DNA from: Agrococcus jejuensis
Lineage (GTDB): Bacteria; Actinomycetota; Actinomycetes; Actinomycetales; Microbacteriaceae
Length of the DNA: 64,000 nucleotides
NCBI RefSeq assembly: GCF_900099705.1
Contig: NZ_LT629695.1
Coordinates: 1,922,001 to 1,986,000 of the forward strand
Direction of reading: 5' to 3'
Shown here piece by piece: positions 29,211 through 36,414 of the stretch. A program made the translations under genes and the position numbers. The notes beneath the pieces were generated by a model. That model was not told the origin of the DNA. It saw nothing but the letters and a program-made list of their open reading frames with translations, and searched no databases. Each line of letters starts with the position of its first letter. Within the stretch, counting starts at the first letter, position 1.

Positions 29211-30590
29211 ATGTCCCAGACGACCAGCGCGACGCCCGAGCGCACGACGCAGCAGCGCCGCCGCCGTGTGCTCGCCGCATCCCTCGTCGGCACCACGATC
29301 GAGTGGTACGACTTCTACCTCTACGCGCAGGCCGCCGCCCTCGTGTTCGGCGCGACGTTCTTCCCCGAGACGACGCCCGCCGTCGCCCTCATCGCGTCGT
29401 TCGCGACGTACGGCGTCGGCTTCCTCGCCCGCCCGCTCGGCGGCATCATCGCCGGCCACCTCGGCGACCGCATCGGCCGCAAGCAGCTGCTCGTCGGCTC
29501 GCTGCTGCTCATGGGCATCGCGACCCTGCTCATCGGCCTGCTGCCCACGTACGCGCAGATCGGCATCTGGGCCGTCGTCGCCCTCGTGGTGCTGCGTCTC
29601 GCGCAGGGCCTGTCGGCCGGCGCGGAGTGGGGCGGATCGGCGCTGCTGTCGGTCGAGCACGCTCCGGCCGGGCGCCGCGGATTCTTCGGCTCCTTCACGC
29701 AGATGGGCTCGGCGGGCGGCCTGCTGCTCGCGACCGCGTCGATCTGGGGCGTGCAGGGCATCCTCGGCACCCAGGCGTTCCAGGAGTGGGCGTGGCGCAT
29801 CCCGTTCCTCTTCTCGGCGGTGCTCGTCGTGATCGGCCTCGTCATCCGCCTCGGCGTCGAGGACGCTGCGGAGTTCCGCCAGATCAAGCAGGCGGGCGCG
29901 GTGCGCCGCTACCCGGTGCTCGAGGTGCTCAAGCGGCACCCGCGCGGCGTGCTCGTGACGATCGGCCTGCGCCTCGTGCAGCCGGCGTGGTTCTCGATCC
30001 TCACCGTGTACTCGCTCACGTACCTCACGAACGCGCGGGGAGACTCGGCGATCGGCATCCAGTCGCTGCTCATCGTGGGCGCGATCAGCCTCATCTCGAC
30101 GCCGCTGTGGGGCTGGCTGAGCGACCGGATCGGCCGCCGTCGCATCGCGATCGGCGCCGCGATCGGCATCGGCGTGGCCGTCTGGCCGTTCTTCGCCTTC
30201 CTCGACCACGGCCCGCTCGCGCTCGTGTGGCTCGTGTTCCTCGTCGGCATGAACGTGCTGCACGACGCGATCTACGGCCCGCAGGCGGCGTGGTTCGCCG
30301 AGCAGTTCCCGACCGACCTGCGCTACTCGGGCGTCTCGCTCGGCTACCAGGTGGGCTCGATCTTCTCGAACGGCCTCACGCCGCTGCTCGCGGTCGTGTT
30401 CGTGGAGCTCGGCGGCGGCAGCCCCTGGATCCTCTGCGTCTTCATCGGCGTCTACGCCGTGCTCACGTCGATCGCGGCGGTGTTCGCGAAGGACGGCGGC
30501 TCCGACGACGTCGAGCTCGCCGCCTCCGACGACGTCGAGGCCGAGCTGGATGCGCTCGTCGAGGGGGAGGGCGCCGCGCAGCGCGCGTAG
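29211..30590 (+). CDS. MHS-family MFS transporter (metabolite:H+ symporter)
   Basis: 459 residues, about 12 helices. The start G-T-T-I-E-W-Y-D-F-Y-L-Y-A and the loop G-H-L-G-D-R-I-G-R-K are diagnostic of the metabolite:H+ symporter family (ShiA, KgtP, ProP relatives). F-G-S-F-T-Q-M-G-S-A-G and P-F-L-F-S-A follow as usual. The acidic C-terminal tail (S-D-D-V-E-L, D-D-V-E-A-E-L) is longer than typical. It is divergent from the flavin monooxygenase operon and could import its substrate; this is inference from position. Confidence 0.93.
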   Translation: MSQTTSATPERTTQQRRRRVLAASLVGTTIEWYDFYLYAQAAALVFGATFFPETTPAVALIASFATYGVGFLARPLGGIIAGHLGDRIGRKQLLVGSLLLMGIATLLIGLLPTYAQIGIWAVVALVVLRLAQGLSAGAEWGGSALLSVEHAPAGRRGFFGSFTQMGSAGGLLLATASIWGVQGILGTQAFQEWAWRIPFLFSAVLVVIGLVIRLGVEDAAEFRQIKQAGAVRRYPVLEVLKRHPRGVLVTIGLRLVQPAWFSILTVYSLTYLTNARGDSAIGIQSLLIVGAISLISTPLWGWLSDRIGRRRIAIGAAIGIGVAVWPFFAFLDHGPLALVWLVFLVGMNVLHDAIYGPQAAWFAEQFPTDLRYSGVSLGYQVGSIFSNGLTPLLAVVFVELGGGSPWILCVFIGVYAVLTSIAAVFAKDGGSDDVELAASDDVEAELDALVEGEGAAQRA

Positions 30591-30889: not shown

Positions 30890-33040
30890 ATGAGCGATGC
30901 CCTGTCCACCACGTCCGAGCCGGTCGCGCAGCGCCGCCGACGCGGGCTCTCGCTCGGCACGCAGGCCAAGCTGCTCGTGATGCTGCTGGTCGTGAGCCTC
31001 GTGTCGGCGATCGCGATCGGCGTCATCGGCGTGACGAACGGCCGGGCGTCGCTGCAGGCCGCCGCCTACGACCAGCTGACGACGATCCGCGAGCTGCGCG
31101 GCGAGGCGCTCGAGAGCGAGTTCGCGGCGATCCAGACCGCCGTCGAGGTCGACTCGCGCAACGCGCAGACCCTCGCGGCGCTGCAGGCGTTCGACGCCGG
31201 CTTCGACGCCCTGCGCGATCAGCCCCTCGATGCCGCGGACGACGCCGCGCTCACCGCGTTCTACGAGGAGCGGTACATCCCGGCGCTCGAGGAGCGCACG
31301 GGCGAGACGTACTCGGCCGACGCGTTCCTGCCCGCGACGAACGCCGGCAGGTACATCCAGTCGCAGTACACGGCGACGCGCGGGCTCGAGGACTTCGACG
31401 CGGCGCTGCAGGACCACGACGCGGGCGACGGCAGCGACTGGTCGGCAGCGAACGCGCAGTACGGCCCGTACCTCACGGGCCTCGTCGACACCCTCGGCTA
31501 CGAGGACCTGCTGCTGCTCAACCTCGACGCCGAGGTCGTGTACTCCGCGTACCAGAGCGTCGACATGGGGCTCTCGATGCGCGGCACCGTCTTCGGCGGC
31601 TCCGCGCTCACGCAGGCGTTCGACGAGGTGCTGTCGTCGGGATCGCTCGACGCCCTCGCGACGACCGACTTCGAGGCGTACCTGCCGTCGCTCGGCGCGT
31701 CGACGTCGTGGATCGTCTCGCCCGTCGGCGACGGCACGAACCTCGTCGGCGCGCTCGCCGTGCAGGTGCCGAGCGCGCAGATCGATGCGGTGCTCACGGG
31801 CAACGAGGGATGGGCGGACCAGGGGCTCGGCGAGACGGGCGAGGTCTACGTCGCCGGCGCCGACGGCCTCATGCGCAGCGCCTCGCGTCTGCTGGTCGAG
31901 GACCCGGAGGGCTACGTCGACCAGGTGGTGTCGCAGGGCACGCCCACGCGCGTCGCCGAGCAGGTCGTCGCCGACGAGTCGACCGTGCTGCTGCAGCCGG
32001 TCGACGACGACGGCGTCGAGGCGGCGCTGCGCGGCGAGGACGGCGTCGCCGAGATGGCCGACTACCGCGATGGCGCGAGCCTCGTCGCCTACGCGCCCAT
32101 CGAGCTGCAGGGCCTCGACTGGGTCATCGTCGCGCGCATCGACGCCGACGAGGCGTTCGCGCCCGTCGCCGACTTCACGCGCACCGTCGTGCTGTCGATC
32201 CTCGGCCTCCTGCTGCTCGTCAGCATCGTGTCGCTGCTGCTCGCGCAGGTCTTCACGCGTCCGATCAACAAGCTCGTGACCGCCGTGCATCAGGTCGCGG
32301 GCGGCGACTACACGGTGCAGGTGCCCGTGCGCTCGCGCGACGAGTTCGGCGACCTCGGCACGGCGTTCAACGAGATGGCGACGAGCCTCAGGCTCAAGCA
32401 GGACCTCATCGACCAGCAGCAGGACGAGAACGCACGCCTCATGCGCACGCTCATGCCCGACTCCGTCGCCGAGCGGCTCAAGGACGGCGGCGACGAGGCG
32501 ATCGCCGAGCGGCACGAGAACGTGTCGGTGCTGTTCGCCGAGCTCGTCGGCTGGGAGGACCACGCGCGCGGCCTCGGGCTCGAGGAGGAGATGGGGCAGC
32601 TCAACTTCCTCACCCGTGGATTCGACGAGGCGGCGACGAAGGCGGGCGTCGAGCAGGTGCGCACGCTGCGCGGTGGCTACCTCGCGAGCGTCGGGCTGCA
32701 GGTGCCGCGCGTCGACAATGCGCGCCGTGCCGTCGACTTCGGCATCGAGATGCGCGCCGTCGTCGAGCGCTTCAACGCGCAGCACGGCACGAAGGTCGCG
32801 CTGCGTGCCGGCGTCGACACCGGCACCGTCACGAGCGGCCTCGTCGCGCGCACGAACCTCGCCTACGACCTGTGGGGCGACGCCGTGAGCCTCGCGTACA
32901 AGGTGCGCACCGTCACGGGCGAGCCCGGCGTCTACGTGAGCGACGCCGTGCACGACCGCCTGCGCGACACCGTCGAGTTCACGAACGTCGGCAGCGTCGA
33001 CGTCGCGGGCACGGCCAAGGCCGTCTGGAGGGTCGGATGA
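30890..33040 (+). CDS. Membrane sensor with degenerate class III nucleotide-cyclase domain
   Basis: 716 residues. The ATG at 30890 has GGAG 7 bp upstream; ATGs at 30827 and 30860 are alternatives. Layout: TM1 about 28-48, a large extracellular domain of about 380 residues (dCache-like by size and pattern), TM2 about 432-455, HAMP about 456-510, a short coiled linker, then a class III cyclase homology domain about 545-715. By eye alignment to Rv1625c-type cyclases, the first metal Asp is Glu551 (V-L-F-A-E-L-V-G-W), the second is Gly595 (T-L-R-G-G-Y), the Asn is Ser667 and the transition-state Arg is Lys671 (W-G-D-A-V-S-L-A-Y-K). Catalysis is therefore doubtful. Its stop overlaps the MscS-type channel gene by 4 bp, so the two work together. 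Confidence 0.9.
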   Translation: MSDALSTTSEPVAQRRRRGLSLGTQAKLLVMLLVVSLVSAIAIGVIGVTNGRASLQAAAYDQLTTIRELRGEALESEFAAIQTAVEVDSRNAQTLAALQAFDAGFDALRDQPLDAADDAALTAFYEERYIPALEERTGETYSADAFLPATNAGRYIQSQYTATRGLEDFDAALQDHDAGDGSDWSAANAQYGPYLTGLVDTLGYEDLLLLNLDAEVVYSAYQSVDMGLSMRGTVFGGSALTQAFDEVLSSGSLDALATTDFEAYLPSLGASTSWIVSPVGDGTNLVGALAVQVPSAQIDAVLTGNEGWADQGLGETGEVYVAGADGLMRSASRLLVEDPEGYVDQVVSQGTPTRVAEQVVADESTVLLQPVDDDGVEAALRGEDGVAEMADYRDGASLVAYAPIELQGLDWVIVARIDADEAFAPVADFTRTVVLSILGLLLLVSIVSLLLAQVFTRPINKLVTAVHQVAGGDYTVQVPVRSRDEFGDLGTAFNEMATSLRLKQDLIDQQQDENARLMRTLMPDSVAERLKDGGDEAIAERHENVSVLFAELVGWEDHARGLGLEEEMGQLNFLTRGFDEAATKAGVEQVRTLRGGYLASVGLQVPRVDNARRAVDFGIEMRAVVERFNAQHGTKVALRAGVDTGTVTSGLVARTNLAYDLWGDAVSLAYKVRTVTGEPGVYVSDAVHDRLRDTVEFTNVGSVDVAGTAKAVWRVG

Positions 33041-34464
33041 TCGACGACGTGCTCGCGGCCGACTGGTTCGGCTGGGCGGTCGCGCTCGCGATCGGCGTGC
33101 CCATCGTGCTCGTGGTGCTCACGGAGGTCGTGAACCACCTGCAGCGGCGCGGGCACGCGGCGGCGAAGCCGCTGCGCTTCCTGCGCAACTGGGTCGTGCC
33201 GGTCGCGGCGCTGCTCGCGCTGCTCGCGTTCGCGTTCCAGTCGCCCGCCGACCAGGTGTGGGTGCGCATCGTCGCGACGGTGCTCGGCTTCCTCGTCATC
33301 CTGCTCGTGCTGTCGGCGTTCAACGTCGCGCTCTTCTCGCACGCCGAGGAGGGGTCGTGGCGGCAGCGCATCCCGACGATCTTCATCGAGATCGCCAGGC
33401 TCGTGCTCGTCGTCGTGGGCCTCGGCCTGCTGTTCCAGTGGGTGTGGGGCGCCGACGTCGGCGGCCTCATCACGGCGCTCGGCGTCACGTCGATCGTCAT
33501 CGGCCTCGCGCTGCAGAACGCCGTCGGCGGCGTCATCTCGGGCCTGCTGCTGCTGTTCGAGCAGCCGTTCCAGATCGGCGACCACCTCGATGCGGCAGGA
33601 GTCTCGGGCCGCGTGGTCGAGGTGAACTGGCGCGCGAGCCACATCGACACGGGCTCGGGCATCCAGATCGTGCCGAACTCGACGCTCGCGGGGGCGTCGT
33701 TCACGAACCGCTCGCGGCCAGCGGGGCCGCATCACGCAGCCGTCGACGTCGCGTTCTCGACCGACGATCCGCCGCACGAGGTCGTCGCGCTGCTCGTGCA
33801 CGTGGCGTCGAGCCTGCCGATGCTCGTGCCTGGCGAGACGCCCACGGCGTCGTACTCGGGCAAGGGCGGCTTCTCGGTGTCGCTGCCCGTGCAGGGCCCG
33901 GGCCTCGTCGGCGCCGCGACGAGCACCTTCCTCGGCTGGCTCTGGTACGCGGCCCGTCGCCGTGGCTTCGCCCTCGACGGGGATGCGACCGACCCGATCG
34001 CCGAGCCGGGCGTGCTCGAGCGCGCCATCGCCGACGTCGCACCGTCGCTGTTCGCCGACGAGGGGGGCAGGGCGCTGCTCGCCGAGCACGCGCGCCTCGA
34101 GCGCTGGGGCGTCGGCGAGACGGTGCAGCCGTCGGGCGTCGTGCCCGACACCGTGCGCTTCGTCGTCGACGGCCGCGCGCAGGTCGTCGCCGCCAACGGC
34201 GCGGCGCTGCTCGAGATCGGCACCGCCGAGCGCGGCGCCGCCATCGGGCAGACGGCGCTCACGCGCGAGCCGGCCATCGCCTCGACGGTCGTGCAGTCGG
34301 TCATGACGACCCTGTCGGTGCCGCTGCCGACCCTCGACCGGCTCGTCGCATCCGCACCCCGCCTCGCGCAGGAGATGGGCCGCTCGATCGACGCGACGAA
34401 GCAGGCGATGCGCGAGGCCGTCGCCGTCTCGGGAGGCACGGCACTGCCAGGGAGCCGCTCCTAG
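33037..34464 (+). CDS. MscS-type channel with C-terminal CNB-like domain
   Basis: 475 residues; the ATG at 33037 overlaps the sensor stop (ATGA). About five membrane helices: 12-32, 48-68, 73-98, 108-135 and the pore-lining stretch 137-175 (I-G-L-A-L-Q-N-A-V-G-G-V-I-S-G). The MscS beta-domain follows (I-G-D-H-L-D, V-P-N-S-T-L). Residues about 345-465 resemble a cyclic-nucleotide-binding fold (F-V-V-D-G-R-A-Q-V-V, then G-A-A-I-G-Q-T-A-L). This architecture is that of bacterial cyclic-nucleotide-gated (bCNG) channels. But the phosphate-binding cassette is altered: G-E is Gly404-Gln405 and the P-R-x-A-T Arg is Ala413. The ligand may be non-nucleotide, or gating may be by the partner sensor. Confidence 0.88.
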   Translation: MIDDVLAADWFGWAVALAIGVPIVLVVLTEVVNHLQRRGHAAAKPLRFLRNWVVPVAALLALLAFAFQSPADQVWVRIVATVLGFLVILLVLSAFNVALFSHAEEGSWRQRIPTIFIEIARLVLVVVGLGLLFQWVWGADVGGLITALGVTSIVIGLALQNAVGGVISGLLLLFEQPFQIGDHLDAAGVSGRVVEVNWRASHIDTGSGIQIVPNSTLAGASFTNRSRPAGPHHAAVDVAFSTDDPPHEVVALLVHVASSLPMLVPGETPTASYSGKGGFSVSLPVQGPGLVGAATSTFLGWLWYAARRRGFALDGDATDPIAEPGVLERAIADVAPSLFADEGGRALLAEHARLERWGVGETVQPSGVVPDTVRFVVDGRAQVVAANGAALLEIGTAERGAAIGQTALTREPAIASTVVQSVMTTLSVPLPTLDRLVASAPRLAQEMGRSIDATKQAMREAVAVSGGTALPGSRS

Positions 34465-34473: not shown

Positions 34474-36414
34474 ATGACTGCTGCCCGATCCGGCATCGAC
34501 ATCGCCGAGCTCAGCCCGGAGATCCGCCCCCAGGACGACCTGTTCCAGCACGTGCACGCCAAGTGGCTCGCGCGCACCGACATCCCCTCCGACAAGGCGC
34601 GCTGGGGATCGTTCGCCGTGCTCGCCGAGGAGGCGGAGCAGGCGGTGCGCACGATCATCGAGGAGTCGACCGACGCCGAGCCCGGCACCGAGCAGCGCAA
34701 GGTCGGCGACCTGTTCGCGTCGTTCATGGACGAGGCGGCGATCGACGCGCGCGGCATCGACCCCATCCGCCACCTGCTCGCGCAGGTCGACGGCATCGAG
34801 ACGACCGACGACCTGCTGCGCGTCGTCGCGAGCATGGAGCGCATCGGCGGTCCCGGCCTCTTCGGCCAGTACGTCGACAACGACCCGGGCGACCCCGAGC
34901 GCTACGTCGTCAACGTCGTGCAGGGCGGCCTGGGCCTGCCCGACGAGTCGTACTACCGCGAGGAGTCGTTCGCCGAGACGCGCGCGAAGTACCTCGCGCA
35001 CCTGCAGACGATGCTCGGGCACGTCGAGCGCCCGGATGCGGCGGCCGAGGCCTCCGCGATCCTCGCGCTCGAGACCGACGTCGCCACGCACCACTGGGAC
35101 CGCGTGACGTCGCGCGACAGCGTCAAGACGTACAACCTGCAGCCGTTCGTCGACACGTACGAGTGGCTCGCGCCGTGGTTCGAGGCCGTCGAGTCGCCCG
35201 CCGACGCGTACCGCGAGGTCGTCGTGCACCAGCCGTCGTACCTCGAGGGCGTCGCGACGCTGCTCGTGCCCGAGCGCCTCGACGCGTGGCGCTCGTGGCT
35301 GCGCGCCGGCATCGTGCGCGCGTGGGCGCCGTACCTCACGACGACGATCTCGAAGGACGCGTTCGCGTTCTACGGCACCGCGCTCACGGGCGCGCTCGAG
35401 CAGCGCGCGCGCTGGAAGCGCGGCGTCGCGCTCGTCGAGGGCGCCCTGGGCGACATCGTCGGCAAGGTCTACGTCGAGCGGCACTTCCCGCCGCACGCGC
35501 GCACGGCGATGGACGAGCTCATCGCGAACCTCGTCGCCGCGTACCGCGCCTCCATCGAGACCCTCGAGTGGATGAGCCCGGAGACGCGCGAGGCGGCGCT
35601 CGAGAAGCTCGAGCGGTTCACGCCGAAGATCGGCTTCCCCGTGCGCTGGCGCACGTACGAGGCGCTCGAGGTCGGCGACGACCTCGTGGCGAACGTGCAG
35701 GCCGCCGCGTCGCACGAGCACGACCGCGAGCTGGGCAAGATCGGCCGCCCCATCGACCGCGACGAGTGGTTCATGGGTCCGCAGACCGTCAACGCGTACT
35801 ACAACCCCGGCTTCAACGAGATCGTCTTCCCCGCCGCGATCCTGCAGCCGCCGTTCTTCGACCACACGGCGGACCCGGCCGCGAACTACGGCGCGATCGG
35901 CGCGGTCATCGGACACGAGATCGGCCACGGCTTCGACGACCAGGGCTCGCGCTACGACGGCGACGGCCGCCTGCGCGACTGGTGGACCGAGGACGATCGC
36001 GCGCGCTTCGAGGAGCGCACGAGCGTGCTCATCGCCCAGTACGACGCGCTGTCGCCCGCAGCCGCGCCCGACCACAACGTCAACGGCGCCCTCACGATCG
36101 GCGAGAACATCGGCGACCTCGGCGGCCTCGGCATCGCGTGGAAGGCGTACCTGCGGCACCTCGACGGTGCCGAGGCGCCCATCATCGACGGGCTCGACGG
36201 CGCGCAGCGCTTCTTCCTGTCGTGGGCGCAGGCGTGGCAGCTGAAGATCCGCACCGAGGAGGCCATCCGCCTCGTGTCGATCGACCCGCACTCGCCGAAC
36301 GAGCACCGCACGAACCAGATCGTGCGCAACATGGATGCGTTCTACGACGCGTTCGCGGTGCGCGAGGGCGATGCGCTGTGGCTGTCGCCCGAGGCGCGCG
36401 TCACCATCTGGTAG
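34474..36414 (+). CDS. M13 family zinc metallopeptidase (neprilysin/PepO-like)
   Basis: 646 residues, normal length. Zinc motif H-E-I-G-H with the following G-F-D-D-Q-G-S, the third ligand in G-E-N-I-G-D-L-G-G, and substrate-binding N-A-Y-Y-N-P are all present. The last residues have the conserved C-terminal block (Y-D-A-F-A-V-R-E-G-D), although the usual R-V-W-[end] reads V-T-I-W. No signal peptide, so it is probably cytosolic, like PepO, degrading small peptides. It begins 9 bp after the channel gene and has its own leaderless promoter. Confidence 0.95.
   Translation: MTAARSGIDIAELSPEIRPQDDLFQHVHAKWLARTDIPSDKARWGSFAVLAEEAEQAVRTIIEESTDAEPGTEQRKVGDLFASFMDEAAIDARGIDPIRHLLAQVDGIETTDDLLRVVASMERIGGPGLFGQYVDNDPGDPERYVVNVVQGGLGLPDESYYREESFAETRAKYLAHLQTMLGHVERPDAAAEASAILALETDVATHHWDRVTSRDSVKTYNLQPFVDTYEWLAPWFEAVESPADAYREVVVHQPSYLEGVATLLVPERLDAWRSWLRAGIVRAWAPYLTTTISKDAFAFYGTALTGALEQRARWKRGVALVEGALGDIVGKVYVERHFPPHARTAMDELIANLVAAYRASIETLEWMSPETREAALEKLERFTPKIGFPVRWRTYEALEVGDDLVANVQAAASHEHDRELGKIGRPIDRDEWFMGPQTVNAYYNPGFNEIVFPAAILQPPFFDHTADPAANYGAIGAVIGHEIGHGFDDQGSRYDGDGRLRDWWTEDDRARFEERTSVLIAQYDALSPAAAPDHNVNGALTIGENIGDLGGLGIAWKAYLRHLDGAEAPIIDGLDGAQRFFLSWAQAWQLKIRTEEAIRLVSIDPHSPNEHRTNQIVRNMDAFYDAFAVREGDALWLSPEARVTIW

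Follow-up and report, generated by a model that had tools for sequence, protein, structure and literature searches.

A 64,000-nucleotide stretch of Agrococcus jejuensis DNA (contig NZ_LT629695.1, positions 1,922,001 to 1,986,000; hereafter the window) carries two overlapping, open genes: a sensor gene at 30890-33040, whose product ends in a class III cyclase domain without its catalytic residues, and a gene at 33037-34464 for an MscS-type channel, whose tail folds like a cyclic-nucleotide-binding domain yet lacks the key residues of the phosphate cassette. We slightly favour a reading in which an extracellular ligand gates the channel by direct allostery through these two pseudo-domains. The sequences and structural models support the folds, the loss of catalytic and cassette residues, the co-inheritance of the two genes, purifying selection, and the absence from this genome of the messenger parts for which we searched.

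Degenerate sites in sensor and channel

The order of domains proposed in an earlier sequence-only reading of this DNA, namely a transmembrane helix (TM), a large extracellular domain, a second TM, HAMP and a class III cyclase domain, with a 4-bp overlap into the gene of a tailed MscS channel, is borne out by the coordinates and domain matches. A double Cache (dCache) ectodomain sits between the two TM helices. The cyclase part is recognised by PF00211 (E 2.3e-27), the family profile matches AC9 (E 2.2e-60), and the sensor model has the alpha/beta cyclase fold, with low confidence at residues 525-541, 604-608 and 646-661; the list of VIA-align structures for the sensor was filled by the dCache domain, and is uninformative on the cyclase part. 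Neither metal-binding Asp of a class III cyclase is present (Glu551 and Gly595 stand in their place), nor are the transition-state Asn and Arg (Ser667 and Lys671). Alignment places these four residues, and Gln405 and Ala413 of the channel, just where the sequence-only reading had put them.

Residue positions are numbered by the window sensor, and our main set of 120 sequences consists of this sensor and 119 database relatives. The database protein searches gave 847, 2401 and 1997 matches, of which the best 120 in each case were used, so that the residue counts describe near relatives. In the window set position 551 is Glu in 118 sequences, 595 is Gly in 110, 667 is Ser in 81 and Asn in 37, and 671 is Arg in 108 and Lys in 4. 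Among 120 relatives of a mycobacterial sensor, position 595 is Asn in 112, 667 is Ser in 111 and 671 is Gln in 115. Since the residue sets differ between the clades, different residues have been lost along different lines, with every line incomplete. The combination of D551, D595, N667 and R671 occurs nowhere in the window set (where one of the 119 is gapped), in the mycobacterial set or in 32 Microbacteriaceae loci. Homologous pairs that retain the catalytic residues, which the sequence-only reading had named among the cases that would tell against it, were sought in the family alignments and none was found.

When the six catalytic columns are left out and a tree is built from cyclase domains, 44 sensor domains group as a single clade (SH-aLRT 99, by a quick method); none has the full set of D551, D595, N667 and R671, and a single one has both metal-Asp columns. 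Stand-alone cyclases from the same genome searches keep D551, D595, D660, N667 and R671 in 25 of 25 cases and, because they are intact in the same tree, we conclude that the loss tracks the sensor family and not the alignment. Seven of 15 reference cyclase loci entered this tree. Those left out are L067, which is a complete DKDDNR row, L078 and L081, which are unalignable, and L076, L077, L079, L080 and L083, which are other class III types that keep both metal Asp residues, three of them having Gly at the Asn position. One sensor interrupted by a stop codon (L013/L166) was excluded from the full-length alignments and from the sensor1/sensor2 tree described below, while its open cyclase piece was counted in the catalytic columns and in the 44-domain tree; L128 is gapped at position 551, and the second sensor of L150 is truncated at the end of its contig, which leaves no cyclase domain to count. 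Judged from these alignments, the degenerate sites are an ancient trait common to the family, rather than a loss in this pair. The idea that both partners had lost their sites while the genes stayed otherwise intact therefore holds as to open genes and parallel degeneration, which extends far beyond the A. jejuensis genome, but needs amending in that the loss is ancient and shared, not this pair's own, and in that some family members retain the Asn and Arg of the sensor.

The channel has an MscS pore and beta domain (PF00924, E 3.1e-16; phmmer to a YnaI/MscS chain, E 4.8e-15) and the C-terminal cyclic-nucleotide-binding fold of bacterial cyclic-nucleotide-gated (bCNG) channels. The Glu and Arg of the phosphate cassette are missing: they are replaced by Gln405 and by Ala413, or Pro412 in the other register, and profile alignment to PKG domains backs Gln405 and, with a one-residue gap, Ala413. 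The cassette Glu is found in none of 121 database channels, the window channel included (Q in 103, H in 16, L in 2), in none of 30 channels of mixed origin and in none of the 32 Microbacteriaceae loci, three sets that overlap in part. Arg at position 413, which aligns with the cassette Arg, is likewise absent from all 121 database channels and all 32 Microbacteriaceae loci. The control was drawn from the remaining cyclic-nucleotide-binding domains of these genomes: the profile picked up 19 of 30 loci that match PF00027, and from these 5 family channels (one of them, L099, badly aligned) were removed. The 14 that are left keep the Glu in 12 cases and the Arg in 11. The family channels have a replacement pattern, L-T-R-[EQ], with T409 and R410 invariant in the 120 database relatives.

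The single class III cyclase match in the A. jejuensis genome is the window sensor itself. No GGDEF match was found in this genome at E <= 1e-3, nor any member of the cyclic-nucleotide-binding family at the same threshold, although this last search misses the tail of the window channel, so that equally degenerate domains would escape it. As positive controls the searches detected class III cyclases in 5 of 14 genomes, cyclic-nucleotide-binding proteins in 10 and GGDEF in 8. Because no other class III cyclase, cyclic-nucleotide-binding protein or GGDEF domain was recognised, a cyclic-nucleotide messenger is unlikely in A. jejuensis; a route through cyclic di-GMP is not supported in this genome, GGDEF matches being absent. 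A cyclase-domain match of any kind occurs in 35 of 199 Microbacteriaceae genomes; 30 are verified carriers of the pair, and 27 of the 30, A. jejuensis included, have no class III cyclase domain besides the sensor. One Microbacteriaceae carrier has an extra frame with two partial cyclase matches (L130, G130:C1:3585357-3586466), and another genome, G938, with a 736-aa frame, is probably a carrier outside the verified set. To this extent the proposal of signalling without a second messenger is supported for A. jejuensis, but it is weakened by relatives whose catalytic site is near-complete, to which we return below.

Pairing, constraint and a three-gene form

Of the class's 296 genomes, 22 have the sensor (E <= 1e-40), and exactly these 22 have the channel (E <= 1e-30). 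The channel gene lies directly 3' of the sensor gene at 24 of 24 sensor places, by our estimate no more than about 12 bp from the stop, a spacing that is unreadable for one sensor with an internal stop. Six of these carriers are among the 14 listed Microbacteriaceae genomes, and the other 16 belong to one genus of another family which, from the names of its relatives, appears to be Mycobacterium. In a second class, of 247 genomes, the tailed channel (E <= 4e-83) and the full-length sensor (E <= 7e-83) were found in one and the same set of 10; the weaker rows are three channel matches (E ~1e-27 to 1e-29) to short MscS frames and 23 further rows of the sensor profile that span the cyclase part only. 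At the thresholds used, sensor and tailed channel were never found apart in either class. Two of 12 matches in a search of the phylum (G063, G451) are short MscS frames with no sensor in their flanks. Pairing was seen in all 32 Microbacteriaceae loci checked, and distances among the sensors follow those among the channels (r 0.96 for 54 pairs, and 0.88-0.91 inside clades), as expected for co-inheritance. Two genomes, G158 and G259, have two copies of the pair each, and the reported in-frame TGA of one G259 channel is its ordinary end. No third partner gene recurs in all of 20 compared loci (an open-reading-frame comparison viewed from 5 of them), and local synteny around the pair was seen only among four relatives.

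Constraint was estimated as the ratio of nonsynonymous to synonymous substitution rates (dN/dS) by a simple counting method over the 14 nearest pairs, which are non-independent. Identity between the window and its A. jejuensis relative is 95% in the pseudo-cyclase (dN/dS 0.089), 100% in the pore and MscS beta part, 86% in the pseudo binding domain (0.18) and 69% in the ectodomain (0.53). Over the 14 pairs dN/dS is 0.07-0.34 for the pseudo-cyclase and 0.08-0.71 for the pseudo binding domain, and the ectodomain value exceeds that of the pseudo-cyclase in 13. By this measure the pseudo-cyclase is under purifying selection, and the extracellular side of the sensor tends to change more quickly than the intracellular side, as might happen in a region that binds ligand. 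Several residues, among them R576, A581, R613, R627, S649, L668 and G680, are near-invariant in 25 Actinomycetes-type sensors and rare in stand-alone cyclases; R613 and R627, for instance, are each present in 25 of 25 such sensors against 3 of 25 stand-alone cyclases. As read from the alignments, constraint on the retired domains has moved rather than been lost.

A more distant form of the locus has the order sensor1-channel-sensor2 on one strand, and was found in 9 loci (L126, L127, L144-L150), 8 from the second class and one (G373) from another family by way of the phylum search. L128, which a contig end cuts within the channel, has sensor2, and L151, near a contig end, has one sensor and a channel only. 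Sensor1 and sensor2 form separate clades (SH-aLRT 100 each). Sensor1 keeps K591 and D660 in 9 of 9 loci and has lost D551 and N667 in 9 of 9, while D660 and N667 are lost in all 9 counted sensor2 domains. One channel may be served by two different receptors in this form.

Proposed mechanism and rival explanations

Under the mechanism that we propose, a ligand would bind the dCache ectodomain, and the resulting change would travel via TM2, HAMP and the signalling helix into a dimer of the pseudo-cyclase, which would act on the pseudo cyclic-nucleotide-binding domain of the channel and so shift its gate; no diffusible cyclic nucleotide would be made or read. We infer that the sensor dimerises and touches the channel directly, that the signal runs in this direction, and that the channel conducts ions. 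The balance tips just towards a self-contained module, in which both domains have been kept as protein-protein or allosteric parts after losing their chemistry. More tentatively, and a little short of an even chance, the loci may represent an ancient, actinobacteria-wide class of ligand-gated channels with separate receptor and pore proteins, where a one-time cyclase would dock on what was once a cyclic-nucleotide-binding domain, the messenger step would be bypassed altogether, and the distant form could integrate two outside signals.

Several observations weigh against direct allostery through retired domains. In the mycobacterial set D551 is present in 107 of 120 relatives and both metal Asp residues in 4, all four without the Asn and Arg, and the L144 sensor2 is in the same state. 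At positions 551, 591, 595, 660, 667 and 671, three of the 32 Microbacteriaceae loci (L203, L210, L215) read DREDNR and one (L212) reads DRDDNA; family members of these types may, from their residues, be capable of weak catalysis. Seven examined mycobacterial carriers have 8-19 cyclase-domain matches each, their own sensor included. In the channel, position 412 is Arg in 62 and Lys in 37 of 121 sequences (99 of 121; Pro in the window channel), so that the cassette Arg has possibly shifted by one residue in relatives, though not in the window channel. R410 is present in only 29 of the 32 Microbacteriaceae loci and missing from most of 11 distant channels, and several of these 11, all of them without the Glu, have an Arg close to where the cassette Arg would align, in an ambiguous part of the alignment. 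The loss of cassette residues may also be compatible with some other ligand. As for constraint, the dN/dS of the binding domain reaches up to 0.71 in two pairs, the mycobacterial pair L169/L157 is an exception in that its ectodomain is more conserved than its pseudo-cyclase, and the new residues are mostly lost in 18 domains of the three-gene type (R576 present in 2, R613 in 10). Tree agreement and co-occurrence, moreover, indicate co-inheritance, not contact, and a dimeric sensor facing a heptameric channel, the states usual in these families, is a symmetry mismatch.

The rival that we take most seriously, though we think it rather unlikely, also dispenses with a messenger: the pseudo-cyclase, the pseudo binding pocket or both would bind a co-signal, be it ATP, GTP, some nucleoside or an unrelated small molecule, and that ligand may gate the channel in place of touch. 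The nucleotide-recognition Lys and Asp columns that sensor1 of the three-gene form keeps throughout, although its D551 and N667 are gone, are consistent with this, as is the presence of D660 in 120 of 120 mycobacterial relatives, and the channel cassette has a conserved set of its own (T409, R410, E/Q411), as a new ligand site would. A freely available ligand, on the other hand, needs neither strict pairing nor gene overlap, and no such ligand is known. Taking direct allostery and this co-signal together, it is quite probable that a cyclic nucleotide is not the carrier in the A. jejuensis genome. The alternative that it is, with an ordinary cyclase feeding a bCNG channel through unusual working sites, so that a little cyclic nucleotide is made beside the channel and read at high local concentration, strikes us as improbable. 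The gene order is that expected of such a system, the confidently modelled parts show intact folds, the DREDNR loci combine D551, E595, N667 and R671, and many relatives may still have a cassette Arg, shifted forward by one position to 412; against this, all four catalytic positions differ in the window sensor, the cassette Glu is missing in every counted channel, and no complete site occurs in 44 tree rows, 120 and 120 database sequences and 32 family loci.

Mammalian cyclases are heterodimeric, which lends some weight to the view that the sensor is half of a mixed cyclase and obtains the residues it lacks from a second half; so do the two different sensors that flank one channel in the three-gene type, and L144, where sensor2 has both metal-Asp columns and sensor1 has K591 and D660. 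We nevertheless hold this view to be very improbable, given that 27 of 30 verified family carriers, A. jejuensis among them, have no other cyclase domain to serve as partner. Rescue of this kind in the three-gene loci is ruled out: the catalytic Asn is missing in every counted sensor1 and sensor2 (9 of 9 each), and a mixed dimer would therefore be incomplete. Still harder to credit are decaying pseudogenes on their way to loss. The patchy distribution of the pair, with no cyclase match in the other four sampled genomes of the genus, and the internal stop of the mycobacterial sensor in G267 are what such decay might look like, but both window genes are open, both pseudo-domains are under purifying selection and have newly near-invariant residues, and dN/dS below 1 in 14 of 14 pairs refutes decay as a general reading.

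Layout of the locus and known systems

The features of the two genes are collected in Table 1. A contig scan with the one sensor sequence gave A. jejuensis as the sole full-length relative, plus four partial matches. Two alphaproteobacterial loci (L003, L004) are 26% identical to sensor residues 177-520, covering Cache and HAMP, and have no channel match.

Table 1. Features of the sensor-channel locus (window coordinates).
Feature	Position	Strand	Evidence or remark
Sensor gene, 716 aa	30890..33040	+	TM1, dCache ectodomain, TM2, HAMP, pseudo-cyclase; ATG start matches 715-aa relatives P0003-P0005
TM1, ~residues 24-49	30959..31036	+	Model helix 24-89 and hydrophobicity by eye; approximate boundary
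dCache extracellular ligand-binding domain, ~residues 50-424	31037..32161	+	
TM2, ~residues 425-449	32162..32236	+	Model helix 424-470; approximate boundary
HAMP domain, residues 450-501	32237..32392	+	Pfam PF00672, E 6.8e-17; D484, E485 in 120/120 aligned sequences
Signalling helix / cyclase transducer stretch, residues 502-538	32393..32503	+	L517, P523, G534 in 120/120
Pseudo-cyclase domain, residues 539-709	32504..33016	+	PF00211, E 2.3e-27; catalytic columns lost
Glu551 replacing first metal Asp	32540..32542	+	E in 118/120 sensors; D in 25/25 stand-alone cyclases
Gly595 replacing second metal Asp	32672..32674	+	G in 110/120 sensors; N in 112/120 mycobacterial relatives
Ser667 replacing catalytic Asn	32888..32890	+	S 81, N 37 among 120 sensors
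Lys671 replacing catalytic Arg	32900..32902	+	R 108, K 4 among 120 sensors
Sensor stop / channel start overlap, ATGA, 4 bp	33037..33040	+	
MscS-type channel gene with cyclic-nucleotide-binding-like tail, 475 aa	33037..34464	+	
Pore helix and MscS beta domain, ~residues 141-227	33457..33717	+	PF00924, E 3.1e-16; model helix 141-174
Pseudo cyclic-nucleotide-binding domain, ~residues 322-456	34000..34404	+	
Degenerate phosphate cassette GQTALTREPA, residues 404-413	34246..34275	+	Gln405, Ala413

The locus is flanked in the window by genes for an M13-family metallopeptidase (34474-36414) and an MFS transporter (29211-30590), neither of which recurs beside the pair in the compared loci. The window channel is not the sole channel of its type, because the A. 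jejuensis genome encodes three MscS-type proteins, this one included. A class III cyclase match is absent from 4 of 4 other sampled genomes of the genus (G828, G887, G931, G970), so that the pair is patchy even within it. The mycobacterial sensor with the internal stop (L013, L166; G267:C1:2466193-2468283) has one internal TAG, and the frame of its channel is open.

The sensor family has a member in Mycobacterium tuberculosis, P0250, a 730-aa protein 84% identical to the sensor of G070, with D551, N595, S667 and Q671. From its length and its neighbours we take P0250 probably to be Rv2435c, and its channel probably to be Rv2434c. A gene for a PfkB-family kinase adjoins the pair in G070, as does Rv2436 in M. 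tuberculosis. The arrangement of that pair, a sensor gene directly followed by that of a tailed MscS channel, is the one found at all 24 places in the class. Rv2435c has been assigned a double Cache domain (PMC4822843) and grouped with the mammalian-type cyclases (PMC3961136), and both papers treat it as an adenylate cyclase, unlike our pseudo-cyclase reading. PMC11205783 places Rv2434c in the cAMP pathway, as a possible membrane protein. Shenoy 2004 (PMC2447327), according to which only class III cyclases were found in the actinobacterial genomes of its time, names Rv2435c 10 times and Rv2434c three times and contains 'inactive cyclase' once, and neither 'mechanosensitive' nor 'ion channel'; that paper may already have noted Rv2435c as inactive. 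Within the titles, abstracts and passages of the openly licensed literature, we found no report in which a pseudo-cyclase acts on a channel of the MscS type. Database proteins of the sensor family carry adenylate or guanylate cyclase names, and the family channels may be taken for cyclic-nucleotide-gated ones; it is likely that neither name is right here, the M. tuberculosis protein included. If the proposed allostery is true, a diffusible-messenger pathway has been short-circuited into an allosteric receptor-channel complex, and the result is a bacterial receptor-gated channel, most of whose sampled environmental carriers have no other class III cyclase.

KCNH/EAG-type channels have a tail with the cyclic-nucleotide-binding homology fold and are not gated by cyclic nucleotides, but they are voltage-gated and are not known to have a sensor cyclase as partner. 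On the sensor side, the closest solved relatives by sequence are mammalian-type class III cyclases (AC9 and the adenylate cyclase 4p2m), and the nearest stand-alone relatives in our tree are bacterial cyclases of the same type, which keep D, D, N and R in 25 of 25 cases, unlike every counted sensor. A Cache-bearing subunit, alpha2-delta, is described in PMC4822843 as belonging to voltage-dependent calcium channels; it resembles our sensor in being a channel's partner protein with an extracellular Cache module, and differs in being animal and without a HAMP or cyclase domain. The bCNG channels, which are members of the MscS superfamily with a cyclic-nucleotide-binding tail (Caldwell 2010 and Malcolm 2012, as referenced in PMC4560390), share with the window channel the MscS pore, the beta domain and the C-terminal fold, whereas the window channel is without the cassette Glu and Arg and lies beside a pseudo-cyclase sensor, with no cyclase to feed it.

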